Shown here piece by piece: positions 2,025 through 5,225 of a stretch of 64,000 nt of DNA. This DNA comes from Phaeovulum sp. (GTDB lineage: Bacteria > Pseudomonadota > Alphaproteobacteria > Rhodobacterales > Rhodobacteraceae). Both the position numbers and the translations under genes were made by a program. How positions within the stretch are numbered: the stretch's first letter is position 1; every line of letters begins with the position of its first letter. The DNA lies in NCBI RefSeq assembly GCF_030684035.1, contig NZ_JAUXPI010000002.1:62001-126000 (forward strand). The letters run 5' to 3'. The notes under the pieces were generated by a model. The model saw only the letters and a list, made by a program, of their open reading frames with translations, did no database searches and was not told where the DNA came from.

Positions 2025-2908
2025 TCCGGGCATTGCTCGCCGCGCTGCTGCTTGCCACCCCTGCCGGGGCGGAACCGCTGGCGCGCACGCTTTTTGGGGC
2101 GGCCAAGGTGCCATCGCAGCAGGCGAGCGAGGCGATCGGGTCGTATGCAAGGGGTTGCGCCGCCGGGCTGGTGGCAATGCCGGAAAGCGGGCCGGGCTGG
2201 CAGGCGATGCGGCTGAGCCGCAACCGCTTCTGGGGCCAGCCGGCGATGATCGACTATCTGCAAGACCTGTCGCTTGTGGCGCAGGGGCTCGGCTGGGCCG
2301 GGCTTTACATTGGCGATATCAGCCAGCCGCGCGGCGGGCCGATGACCGGCGACCATGCCAGCCACCAGATCGGGCTTGATGCCGACATCTGGATGTTGCC
2401 GCCCCGGCGGCTCAATCTGAGCCGCGCCGAGCGCGAGGAAATTTCCTCGATTTCGGTGCGCACCGAGGACCAGCGCGCGGTGAATGCCAATTTCACCCCC
2501 GCCCATGCCGCACTTTTGCAAGCCGCCGCCTCTGACCCGAGGGTGGAACGGATTTTCGTTGCGGCGGCGGTGAAGCTGGAGATGTGCAAGACCGCAACCC
2601 GGCGCGATAAAACGTGGTTGCAGAAGATCAGGCCGATAGCCGGGCACAACACCCATTTCCATGTGCGGTTGCGCTGCCCGGAGGGTTCGGCAAGCTGTGT
2701 CACCCAGTCGCCCACGGTGGCCGAGCTTTCCGATGGCGGCAGCGGCTGCGATGCCACGCTCGACTGGTGGGTGACAACCTACCTTGAGCCACCAAAGCCG
2801 CCCGCGAACCCGCCGCCAAAGCCGACCACACCGCCGCCGCGCAATGCGCGCACCTTTCTCATGTCTGACCTTCCCGCTCAATGCGCCGCTGTTCTGGCCG
2901 CCGGCTGA
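2021..2908 (+). CDS. mepA: penicillin-insensitive murein endopeptidase MepA
   Basis: A 295-residue periplasmic M74 (LAS-type) metallopeptidase that cleaves D-Ala-meso-DAP cross-links in peptidoglycan. Residues 1-17 form a signal peptide ending in AGA. Zinc ligands fit H115 and D122 in HQIGLDAD and the HFH motif at about residues 212-214. The last 30 or so residues are proline-rich (PPKPPANPPPK...), a linker-like tail. The start codon overlaps the upstream MFS stop by 4 bp, and the 3' end overlaps the next gene by 28 bp. Confidence 0.93.
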   Translation: MIRALLAALLLATPAGAEPLARTLFGAAKVPSQQASEAIGSYARGCAAGLVAMPESGPGWQAMRLSRNRFWGQPAMIDYLQDLSLVAQGLGWAGLYIGDISQPRGGPMTGDHASHQIGLDADIWMLPPRRLNLSRAEREEISSISVRTEDQRAVNANFTPAHAALLQAAASDPRVERIFVAAAVKLEMCKTATRRDKTWLQKIRPIAGHNTHFHVRLRCPEGSASCVTQSPTVAELSDGGSGCDATLDWWVTTYLEPPKPPANPPPKPTTPPPRNARTFLMSDLPAQCAAVLAAG

Positions 2909-3777
2909 GCGCGGCGCTTCTGGTGCTGGTGCTTGGCACCGGCGCATGCAGCGCCGACGGGCTTGCCGAATACCTCGGCTCGGTCATCTGGGCCGATGCC
3001 GACCCGGCGTTTGGCGGCTTTTCAGGTATTGATGTGGCGGCCGACGGAGCGAGCTTTCTGGCGCTGTCGGACCGGGCAACGCTCTGGCGCGGGCGCATCT
3101 TGCGCGACCGCGAGGGCCGCATGACCGGTGCCGAGGCGCTCGGGCATGATCTGCTGCACGACGCCGAAGGCGCACCGCTGCGCGGCTATCTGACCGATTC
3201 CGAGGGGTTGGCGCTGGCCGAAGACGGCAGCATTTATGTGAGTTTCGAGGGCCTGGCGCGGGTGGTGCGCTACCCCAGCGCCGGTGCCGCATCCGAACCG
3301 CTGCCGCGCCCGGAGGCATTCAAGGCGATGCAGTCGAATGCGTCACTGGAAGCGTTGGCAATCGGTCCGGATGGCACGCTTTACACCCTGCCCGAACGCT
3401 CGGGCGGGCAGGCTGTGCCTTTCCCGGTGTGGCGGTTTCGCGGCGGGGTCTGGGACCAGCCCTTTGAGGTGCCGCGCGATGGCAACTGGCTGCCGGTGGG
3501 GGCCGATATTGGCCCCGACGGGCGGTTTTATCTGCTGGAGCGCGACTTCTGGGGGCTGCTCGGGTTTCTCAGCCGGGCGCGGCGGTTCGATCTGACCGAG
3601 GCAGGCCTTGCGGGCGAGACCCTGCTTTTCGAGACGGCGGCGCGGGTGCACGACAATCTGGAAGGCATCGCGGTGTGGCGCGACGGGGCGGGCGACATCA
3701 GGCTGACGCTGATCGCCGACAACAACTTTCGCGGCTTTCAGCGCAACGAGATTGCCGAATACCGCGTCAGGGATTGA
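2881..3777 (+). CDS. esterase-like activity of phytase family protein
   Basis: A 298-residue exported protein of the phytase-like (esterase-like activity of phytase) family, predicted to be a beta-propeller. It has an N-terminal hydrophobic segment (LSAALLVLVLGTGACSADG); the Cys could be a lipid anchor, although Thr at -3 is unusual for a lipobox. Family blocks include FGGFSGIDVAADGASFLALSDRA, SLEALAIGPDGTLYTLPE and HDNLEGIAVWRD near the C terminus. It overlaps mepA by 28 bp, suggesting co-expression. The true substrate is unknown and the phytase name is only by homology. Confidence 0.8.
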   Translation: MRRCSGRRLSAALLVLVLGTGACSADGLAEYLGSVIWADADPAFGGFSGIDVAADGASFLALSDRATLWRGRILRDREGRMTGAEALGHDLLHDAEGAPLRGYLTDSEGLALAEDGSIYVSFEGLARVVRYPSAGAASEPLPRPEAFKAMQSNASLEALAIGPDGTLYTLPERSGGQAVPFPVWRFRGGVWDQPFEVPRDGNWLPVGADIGPDGRFYLLERDFWGLLGFLSRARRFDLTEAGLAGETLLFETAARVHDNLEGIAVWRDGAGDIRLTLIADNNFRGFQRNEIAEYRVRD

Positions 3778-3862: not shown

Positions 3863-4468
3863 ATGACCCGCTACCTTCCCGGCATTCTTGCCATGTCCGC
3901 CCTTGTGGTGGCTTCGAACATTCTGGTGCAGTTTCTTTTTGGCAACTGGCTGACCTGGGGTGCCTTTACCTATCCATTCGCCTTTCTCGTCAATGATGTG
4001 ATGAACCGTGTCCATGGCCCGGACGCCGCCAAGAGGGTGGTGCTGGCGGGGTTCGGCGTGGGCGTTGTCTGCTCGCTGGTCGCGGCGGGCCTGAACCTCA
4101 CCACCCTGCGCATCGCGCTTGGGTCGGGGCTGGCGTTCGTGGTCGCGCAGATGACCGACGTGGTGGTGTTTGACCGGTTGCGCGCGGGCCAATGGTGGCG
4201 CGCGCCGCTGGTTTCGACGCTGATCGGGGCAACGCTCGATACGGCGATCTTCTTCAGCGTGGCATTTGCGGCGGTGTTCGTTTTCCTTGAACCGGGCGGT
4301 GATACGGGCTGGGCGACAGAGCTGGTGCCGATGCTTGGCAGTGGCCCCGAAGCGCCGCTCTGGGTGTCGCTTGCACTGGCCGATCTGGGGGTGAAACTGG
4401 CGCTCGCGCTTCTGGCGCTGCCGCTATTTCGCATCATTGTGAAGAGACTAATCGCAGGCGTTGCGTAA
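3863..4468 (+). CDS. yhhQ: queuosine precursor transporter (YhhQ/QPTR, Vut_1 family)
   Basis: A 201-residue inner-membrane protein with about six hydrophobic helices, matching the YhhQ/VUT family that imports queuosine precursors (preQ0/preQ1) for tRNA modification. Diagnostic stretches are WLTWGAFTYPFAFLVNDVMNR (N-terminal third), FVVAQMTDVVVFDRLR and WWRAPLVSTLIGATLDTAIFF. The ATG at 3863 gives the family N terminus; an extension to 3752 would be basic and overlap the previous gene. I saw no convincing preQ1 riboswitch in the 85-bp 5' gap. A separate RNA unit begins directly after the stop codon. Confidence 0.88.
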   Translation: MTRYLPGILAMSALVVASNILVQFLFGNWLTWGAFTYPFAFLVNDVMNRVHGPDAAKRVVLAGFGVGVVCSLVAAGLNLTTLRIALGSGLAFVVAQMTDVVVFDRLRAGQWWRAPLVSTLIGATLDTAIFFSVAFAAVFVFLEPGGDTGWATELVPMLGSGPEAPLWVSLALADLGVKLALALLALPLFRIIVKRLIAGVA

Positions 4469-4474
4469 AAACTT

Positions 4475-4498
4475 TTGACAAACACAAAATCTGTGTCA
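4475..4498 (+). promoter_or_regulatory. candidate sigma-70 -35 box with overlapping dyad, start of small RNA unit
   Basis: A consensus TTGACA (4475-4480) lies 7 bp after the yhhQ stop. Only a weak -10 (AGCTTG, about 4498) occurs at 17-bp spacing. The interval also holds an ACACA-AAATC-TGTGT inverted repeat (4482-4496) that could be a repressor site. Placement upstream of an RNA unit ending in a clear terminator supports promoter function. Confidence 0.4.
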
Positions 4499-4539
4499 GC
4501 TTGCAGGTAACGGTAACACGAGCGAAAGGAGGTGGTCCA

Positions 4540-4596
4540 GTGTCGAGAGTGATATTGGAGAGAGGTGTCGGGACAGTCAGGGGGGCCGTTGCCTGA
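4540..4596 (+). CDS. 18-residue peptide frame inside the small RNA unit
   Basis: A GTG-initiated frame (VSRVILERGVGTVRGAVA, then TGA) begins two bases after an unusually long Shine-Dalgarno core, so the spacing is tight if measured from GGTCC but normal (about 7-8 nt) from AGGAGG. Its 3' end overlaps the left arm of the long stem, so translation would disrupt that helix. No function is recognised. It could be a true small protein or a leader whose translation senses something; it could also be fortuitous. Confidence 0.35.
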   Translation: MSRVILERGVGTVRGAVA

Positions 4597-4676
4597 GGGC
4601 AAACCCAAGGGTTACCAACCCTGACTGGGACCAGTCGGCAACGACCCCCTAACTGGCCCATCTCCGTAGATCTCGA

Positions 4677-4703
4677 GGGCCGCCCGGCAACGGGCGGCCT
4701 TTC
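4677..4703 (+). terminator. intrinsic terminator of the small RNA unit
   Basis: A perfect 9-bp stem, GGCCGCCCG (4678-4686) and CGGGCGGCC (4691-4699), with a GCAA tetraloop is followed by TTTC. This is the strongest Rho-independent terminator in this stretch. Confidence 0.8.
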
Positions 4704-4712
4704 GATTGGCAG

Positions 4713-4760
4713 CCGGGGGCGCTGCCCCCGGACCCCCGGGGTATTTGAGACAAGGAAGAG
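4713..4760. repeat. dispersed intergenic repeat, copy a
   Basis: CCGGGGGCGCTGCCCCCGG hairpin followed by ACCCCCGGGGTATTTGAGACAAGGAAGAG. The same layout (G/C hairpin, ACCCCCG, GGGTATTT, purine-rich AAGA end) recurs at 15932-15985 and 59846-59894, with diverged relatives elsewhere in this window. Confidence 0.65.
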
Positions 4761-4802: not shown

Positions 4803-5225
4803 ATGTTGCGGATCAATGACGCCATAGCGATAGCCGACTGGGAACTGGTCGAGAGCTTCACCCGCGCGCAGGGGCCGGGCGGGCAGAACGTCAACAAGGT
4901 TTCCTCGGCGGTCGAATTGCGCTTCGAAGCCGCGCGCAGCCCGCATCTCGGGCCCGCTGTCAAGGCGCGGCTGAAACGGCTGGCGGGGCGGCGCTGGACG
5001 CTGGACGGGGCAATTGTCATCCGCGCCGAGGAGACCCGCAGCCAGGCGCAAAACCGCGCCCTGGCGCGCGAGCGGCTGGCCGAAATGATCCGCGAGGCGC
5101 TGGTGGTGCCAAAGCGGCGGCTGGCGACAAAACCGACACTGGGCAGCCAGAGGCGGCGGCTTGCGGCAAAGACCGAACGCGGCGAGGTCAAGGTGATGCG
5201 CGGCAAGGTGGCTGATGACGATTAG
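4803..5225 (+). CDS. arfB: peptidyl-tRNA hydrolase ArfB (ribosome rescue)
   Basis: A 140-residue codon-independent release factor that hydrolyses peptidyl-tRNA on stalled ribosomes. The catalytic GGQ is at residues 26-28 in the GPGGQNVNKVSSAVEL motif, and the C-terminal tail (about residues 95-140) is rich in Arg/Lys, as needed to enter the empty mRNA channel. The ATG at 4803 is chosen; a TTG two codons upstream is possible. The 3' end overlaps the Nudix gene start by 11 bp, suggesting coupled translation. Confidence 0.9.
   Translation: MLRINDAIAIADWELVESFTRAQGPGGQNVNKVSSAVELRFEAARSPHLGPAVKARLKRLAGRRWTLDGAIVIRAEETRSQAQNRALARERLAEMIREALVVPKRRLATKPTLGSQRRRLAAKTERGEVKVMRGKVADDD

Follow-up and report, generated by a model that had tools for sequence, protein, structure and literature searches.

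What is encoded in the short interval between yhhQ and arfB in Phaeovulum sp. (Rhodobacteraceae; RefSeq assembly GCF_030684035.1)? The interval lies in the window, a 64,000-nt stretch of contig NZ_JAUXPI010000002.1 that was analyzed as a whole and to which all positions below refer. The original prediction, made from the letters alone, had described positions 4475 to 4703 as a self-contained structured RNA unit, either a regulatory small RNA or a leader whose translation changes its fold. We find that this segment is a real, stand-alone RNA gene unit between the two genes, and every sequence element named in that description was located where it had been placed (Table 1). The self-contained character also holds, as the unit carries a promoter-like site and a terminator hairpin of its own and is retained where its neighbors differ. 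A 246-nt region folds at -110.5 kcal/mol, compared with -90.9 ± 5.4 kcal/mol for shuffled sequences, and lies below all 200 of 200 shuffles (z = -3.6). Across the class, the unit comprises a promoter, a nearly full complement of the 16S rRNA tail, the start motif RTG-TC, a frame of 14 to 26 codons, a structured 3′ region, and a terminator hairpin; measured from 9 nt before GAAAGG to the terminator end, it is about 165 to 190 nt long (group medians).

Table 1. Elements of the RNA unit and flanking genes, with positions in the window. SD, Shine-Dalgarno sequence.
Feature	Position	Strand	Basis or remark
YhhQ, queuosine-precursor transporter	3863-4468		Flanks unit upstream
-35 hexamer TTGACA	4475-4480	+	Sequence; 7 bases past yhhQ stop codon
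Weak -10-like CAGCTT	4497-4502	+	Sequence
Extended SD GAAAGGAGGTGGTCC	4524-4538	+	Complements essentially the whole free 16S 3′ tail; conserved across class
H1, 5′ strand, SD core GGAGGTG	4528-4534	+	Pairs with 4659-4665; 97.8% of cells, 45 sequences
H2, start-codon hairpin, TCCAGTGTC (4536-4544) / GATATTGGA (4551-4559)	4536-4559	+	96.8% of cells, 45 sequences
18-codon frame, GTG start, TGA stop, (M)SRVILERGVGTVRGAVA	4540-4596	+	Length and stop conserved
H3, 5′ strand GTCGG	4567-4571	+	Pairs with 4653-4657; 95.1% of cells, 45 sequences
9-bp pairing, CAGTCAGGG (4574-4582) / CCCTGACTG (4619-4627)	4574-4627	+	Present; partly conserved in family alignment
Near-perfect 13-bp stem	4580-4593 with 4637-4649	+	Present in window sequence
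Small hairpin GGG-CAAA-CCC, right after stop codon	4597-4606	+	Family alignment
H3, 3′ strand CTGGC	4653-4657	+	Pairs with 4567-4571
H1, 3′ strand, anti-SD-like CATCTCC, just upstream of terminator	4659-4665	+	Pairs with SD core
Terminator hairpin GGGCCGCCCGGCAACGGGCGGCC, then TTT	4677-4702 (hairpin 4677-4699)	+	Sequence
ArfB, ribosome-rescue hydrolase	4803-5225		Downstream of unit; identity confirmed

The ends of the unit can be followed in its relatives. TTGACA lies just after yhhQ, as originally described, and a TTG-type -35 element stands 46 to 51 nt upstream of GAAAGG in 48 Rhodobacterales copies (TTGACA in 31 of the 48); a strict Escherichia coli-type consensus scan returned no promoter at the unit on either strand. 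The leader ahead of the SD is short and A-rich, with CAACAA in many groups. At the other end, a hairpin followed by T-rich sequence occupies the terminator place in 47 of 50 Rhodobacterales copies. The "strong terminator" of the original prediction has a strong hairpin in the right place, but its T-tract is TTT alone, and the hairpin goes uncalled in a strict terminator scan. Two inverted repeats lie close to these elements: ACACA-AAATC-TGTGT (4482 to 4496), a possible operator between the -35 and -10-like elements that is kept in close relatives (e.g., loci L002 to L006 and L010 to L012) and lost in more distant ones, and the G+C-rich GGCAGCCGGGGGCGCTGCCCCCGGACCCC (4709 to 4740), directly past the terminator and common to the same-genus loci L002 and L003.

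We identified the unit in 24 of 44 alphaproteobacterial genomes and in none of 116 other Pseudomonadota of a phylum-wide sample. Its 21-nt block GAAAGGAGGTGNTYCARTGTC, allowing at most one mismatch, matched 71 of 385 alphaproteobacterial genomes, nearly always as a single copy, and the reversed control gave zero matches in the same 385 genomes. Among genomes of the same family, 81 of 100 match with at most two mismatches and about three quarters with none or one; blastn likewise places the unit in most same-family genomes. A pattern scan of species genomes returned at least 119 contigs, and 118 of 119 among the matches listed are from Alphaproteobacteria, assigned by title or type and counting three metagenome-assembled genomes (MAGs) titled just Proteobacteria as Alphaproteobacteria. 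The orders among the matches listed are Rhodobacterales, Sphingomonadales, Rhizobiales, Caulobacterales, and Rhodospirillales/Acetobacterales. The window unit had no match in plasmid and phage records. By these searches it is specific to Alphaproteobacteria, spread over the class, and present about once per genome. The objection that a long SD could have arisen by convergence is answered by this pattern, because the unit is taxonomically restricted while the anti-SD is also common to other classes. The original prediction had been staked against a lack of conservation outside close relatives; conservation instead reaches across the class. The sole non-alphaproteobacterial contig among the matches listed belongs to a Gemmatimonadota MAG (L089, CP070812.1), where a binning error, transfer, or chance may account for it. 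One genome carries two copies of the block (G048:C1:805112 and G048:C1:2922049), one of them with an MSHCHA... frame, a possible paralogue pair. In another (G019), the family search with at most two mismatches found AAAGGAGGAGCTTGAATGTC at nine places; this is probably where a multicopy gene of a mobile element begins, with no relation to the RNA.

We compared the unit with Rfam families to establish its identity. At the gathering threshold, Rfam reports a single tRNA in the whole window and nothing else, in agreement with the original statement that the unit matches none of the standard RNAs; the sensitive form of the proposed Rfam search (256 bases), however, aligned window positions 4516 to 4700 (+ strand) with the Caulobacter small RNA (sRNA) family CC2171 (RF01867) at 33.4 bits (E ~ 1e-5), below the gathering score of 75 bits. 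This alignment spans model positions 1 to 159 on the right strand, with the 5′ block and the terminator in register, and most of its score comes from the SD block and terminator. Loci of other families match RF01867 over its full length in a graded series (33 to 91 bits) in which seven loci exceed the gathering score, so that intermediate sequences tie the window unit to accepted members. Together these comparisons identify the unit as a diverged Rhodobacterales branch of the CC2171 family and a distant relative of RF01867. The two share the 5′ block CGAAAGGAGGUGAUCCAGUGUC at the RNA start, the full-length model match, and a terminator hairpin at the same end, but differ in the middle part, the peptide, and the folding of the ribosome site. 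RF01867 is an sRNA in Rfam, and the family material examined mentions no coding frame, whereas the above-cutoff members that we identified bear the same kind of mini-frame. The analysis adds two features to the named family: a mini-frame under selection and a predicted, lineage-specific self-locking of its ribosome site. A 215-nt RNA-seq transcript, MH_s33 of Mesorhizobium huakuii, has been annotated as RF01867 (PMC5596092), and the family gained one covarying pair in Rfam 15 (PMC11701678). Two earlier-predicted Caulobacter noncoding RNAs proved to be translated (PMC4117421). The papers examined on Rhodobacter sphaeroides sRNAs (RSs and Uds series) contained nothing linked to the window locus.

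The extended SD, originally described as matching about 15 nt of the 16S tail, pairs with GGAUCACCUCCUUUCU over 15 bp including one G-U, at a predicted -27.6 kcal/mol (perfect complement, -28.4; ordinary strong SD, -11.6). No other part of the family is as strongly conserved as this 15-nt complement. In the assembled genome, a pattern count found its 13-mer AAAGGAGGTGRTC exactly once; one mismatch added 13 further sites, no more than for the reversed control pattern. By this count, no fuller ribosome-docking site was seen in the genome.

The short frame behind this site, correctly read as 18 codons in the original prediction, has conserved boundaries. The usual length is 18 codons both in Rhodobacterales (48 of 50 copies) and in Sphingomonadales-type loci (28 of 32 copies); all nine Bradyrhizobium-type copies have 14 codons, Mesorhizobium-type copies have 22 to 25, and Caulobacter-type copies mostly have 21 to 26. 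At the Rhodobacterales stop position we counted TGA 23 times, TAG 17 times, TAA 6 times, and a sense codon never, with at least 15 switches among the three stops on the tree. One gap interval starts within the frame in the Rhodobacterales alignment, compared with 21 in the next 54 columns. The start codon varies among ATG, GTG, and TTG across families and is followed by TC, and a peptide start of MS is common class-wide. These alignments show that the start, length, and stop of the frame are under selection, and they provide strong indirect evidence that it is translated. The amino acids are less constrained: they are mostly not conserved outside Rhodobacterales, and the peptides of different orders are unrelated. 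In Rhodobacterales, synonymous change somewhat exceeds expectation, and does so in the coding frame only (0.44 versus 0.30); it falls below expectation in Sphingomonadales (0.20 versus 0.29) and Bradyrhizobium-type copies (0.09 versus 0.28), and several conserved residues correspond to base-paired codons. Judged from the alignments, the ends of the frame are kept more than its amino acids. The window peptide VSRVILERGVGTVRGAVA is short and basic and has no Pfam match. Longer frames with a signal-peptide-like start (MSHGAKPVIAVLFGISALLTAGVASACP...) follow the ribosome site GAAAGGAGGTGATCCAATGTCTCATGG in L035 (56 codons) and L146 (Azospirillum sp. B21, 59 codons); neither Pfam nor NCBIfam has a match to the L035 protein.

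In Rhodobacterales, we recovered a conserved fold that was absent from the pairings originally listed, in which the SD core pairs with the segment just upstream of the terminator (H1) and the start codon lies in a local hairpin (H2). Across 45 Rhodobacterales sequences, helices H1, H2, and H3 are paired in 95 to 98% of cells, compared with 41 to 48% for slid controls. Both partners vary in two H3 pairs, and changes in the 3′ strands of H1 and H3 are compatible with pairing in 29 cases and incompatible in 15; covariation is modest, since the SD and the frame hold the 5′ strands constant. H2 accounts for the nearly invariant codons TTG GAG. In the small hairpin after the stop codon, the outer two pairs form in 43 to 44 of the 45 sequences and the third is missing in 17. 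The pairings proposed in the original prediction fared less well. Its 13-bp stem is paired in 61% of cells across relatives and is rejected as the family fold, the pairing of TGGTCC (4533 to 4538) with GGACCA (4628 to 4633) is possible in the window but is not kept in relatives, and the 9-bp pairing is present with partial conservation across the family.

In the finished Rhodobacterales RNA, the ribosome site is predicted to be self-locked, the SD by CATCTCC and the start codon in its hairpin. Mean predicted probabilities of being unpaired are 0.017 for the SD and 0.09 for the start, versus 0.28 and 0.44 when the middle is shuffled and the 5′ part and terminator are held. In growing transcripts, modeled by equilibrium folding of truncated RNAs as a proxy for real folding kinetics, the SD is predicted to stay about half to two-thirds open (0.59) until position 4666 is transcribed and to fall to 0.06 to 0.08 thereafter; the start-codon hairpin arises before the SD closes. 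The predicted cost of opening the SD is about 9 kcal/mol in the window and averages 11 kcal/mol in Rhodobacterales.

This lock differs among lineages. Bradyrhizobium-type copies bury the start codon in a local hairpin with the RCHL codons, ribosome-site burial in Sphingomonadales about equals that of controls, and Caulobacter-type and Mesorhizobium-type copies leave the SD and start more accessible than shuffled controls do. Class-wide SD masking is thus rejected, strong masking being found in Rhodobacterales and Bradyrhizobium-type copies only. A helix joining early codons to the pre-terminator segment, considered as a closing element for the whole class, was suggestive in alignments but did not reach significance against shuffles in a crude test. 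Because the Caulobacter- and Mesorhizobium-type sites are open and the Sphingomonadales sites resemble controls, locking is not what the class shares; the common denominator is the full-length SD, short frame, and terminator, and the self-lock is a lineage variant.

What might such an RNA do? Our preferred reading, to which we give slightly less than an even chance, is that the Rhodobacterales branch of CC2171 is an independently transcribed, single-copy mini-mRNA of about 190 nt that acts as a ribosome-gated regulatory RNA. The original notion of a frame whose translation changes the fold is the best available idea for how it could work. During transcription the SD would be partly open, and a 30S subunit could dock through the long SD pairing; the docked subunit would melt the start hairpin, translate the 18 codons, and disrupt the inner helices. 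If no ribosome arrived before the last segment was transcribed, the RNA would snap shut. Invasion of the finished RNA by a 30S subunit also appears possible in principle, because pairing with the 16S tail is predicted to gain more energy than opening the SD would cost. The output would then be a ribosome-dependent RNA state (locked versus open, stable versus degraded, or with the 3′ region exposed versus hidden), and ribosome availability would gate the action of the unit as a small regulatory RNA. Such an RNA state is more likely than the peptide to be the functional output because the amino acids drift. This model builds on the observed conservation, frame ends, and pairing potential; to these it would add transcription in the window organism, ribosome gating, and a regulatory output. 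A broader version, which we regard as rather doubtful, holds that the whole class possesses an ancient ribosome-gated switch whose ligand is almost the entire 16S 3′ tail and which would sense ribosome availability by translating a short frame with largely free amino acids, the Rhodobacterales form closing itself if no ribosome arrives during transcription.

The downstream gene suggests another role, as a leader or attenuator in which ribosomes on the 18-codon frame would decide whether transcription continues past the hairpin into arfB. The RNA lies directly after yhhQ in Rhodobacterales, with arfB following in 35 of 50 loci and standing directly after the hairpin in most; the short T-tract could permit read-through, and a Hyphomonadaceae genome (L116) has arfB beside the RNA on the opposite strand. 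The other 15 Rhodobacterales loci, however, keep the RNA although no arfB is seen after it, and at least nine of these have ample sequence on that side; in other orders the RNA is retained among unrelated neighbors in either orientation. Since the RNA persists without arfB, we reject a dedicated arfB leader as a general explanation and consider control of arfB by this route improbable. The original idea of a leader whose translation changes its fold survives in its conserved start and stop and in the predicted masking of the ribosome site in the finished RNA, but not as a dedicated arfB leader. Near the above-cutoff CC2171 RNA of locus L045, positions 241 to 1521 and 2723 to 3021 hold an SspB homologue (Pfam SspB, 138 bits) and an alpha-tmRNA gene, both no more than about 1.3 kb away. 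Neighbors of this kind (arfB here, sspB and tmRNA near L045) could point to ribosome rescue, but shared ancestry or chance would explain such a link.

The remaining alternatives each put a single part of the unit at its center. If the 16S-tail complement were what mattered, the RNA would be a ribosome decoy or free-30S sensor that holds 30S subunits while the frame matters little, as the original remark that it could titrate ribosomes implied. The predicted excess in duplex strength over an ordinary strong SD and the conservation of the complement above all other parts fit such a role, but titration from a single-copy gene demands very high abundance, stop codon and frame length are under selection, and the SD is predicted to be hidden in finished Rhodobacterales RNA. 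Because a pure decoy needs no conserved stop codon and because of that hidden SD, we treat titration as the weaker reading and as unlikely. If instead the frame were the product, the locus would be an ordinary micropeptide gene (about 18 residues) whose ribosome site is unusually strong and under structural control. The synonymous excess in Rhodobacterales, confined to the coding frame, the class-wide MS start, and the long, signal-peptide-like Azospirillum and L035 frames argue for a peptide; the lack of relationship among peptides of different orders, the deficit of synonymous changes in Sphingomonadales and Bradyrhizobium-type copies, and the placement of several conserved residues on base-paired codons argue against it, and we give it a low probability. 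Finally, CU-rich anti-SD seeds are a usual means by which sRNAs reach mRNA targets, and the CU-rich anti-SD CCCAUCUCC could belong to a trans-acting antisense sRNA, masked by its own SD and freed when a ribosome takes the SD. H1 does pair the SD and this segment with each other, but the segment is a Rhodobacterales feature and we found no Hfq evidence for the unit RNA, and this function seems very unlikely.

The ribosome-gated mini-mRNA that we favor would matter beyond this locus. A named, uncharacterized Caulobacter sRNA emerges as one end of a gene family that occurs in single copy across Alphaproteobacteria; the gene shows evidence of translation, and its ribosome docking site is near the maximum possible. 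Whether ribosome supply can be read out by a single mini-mRNA is now a testable question in well-studied hosts such as Caulobacter or Rhodobacter. The family also carries a warning that alphaproteobacterial RNAs filed as noncoding may hold selected frames whose amino acids hardly matter.

Several known systems share parts of this design. Like the fold-back type I toxin mRNAs hok and, in Helicobacter pylori, aapA3 (PMC6733600), the window unit is a short mRNA whose SD would finally be trapped by a far-3′ anti-SD after a different co-transcriptional fold, as H1 and the low predicted accessibility of the SD indicate. It differs in that its SD is predicted to be about half open during transcription where theirs is kept shut, in being single-copy and class-wide, and in its peptide, which is basic and by sequence not the small hydrophobic membrane toxin of those systems. 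Leader-peptide attenuators that also act in trans, such as the trp leader peptide peTrpL of Sinorhizobium meliloti (PMC7298713), resemble the unit in being small terminated RNAs with a short frame close to the 5′ end, and by sequence evidence the unit has such a translated frame ahead of a hairpin with a weak T-tract. Unlike them, it has no run of regulatory codons and no conserved same-direction downstream operon, given the Rhodobacterales loci that lack arfB and the other neighbors found elsewhere. Long SD-anti-SD pairing also governs initiation at extended-SD genes of Staphylococcus aureus, including small frames (PMC13009471). There, extended pairing is a general feature of many genes, whereas in the window organism the exact 13-mer stands once in the assembled genome, within a self-folding mini-mRNA.
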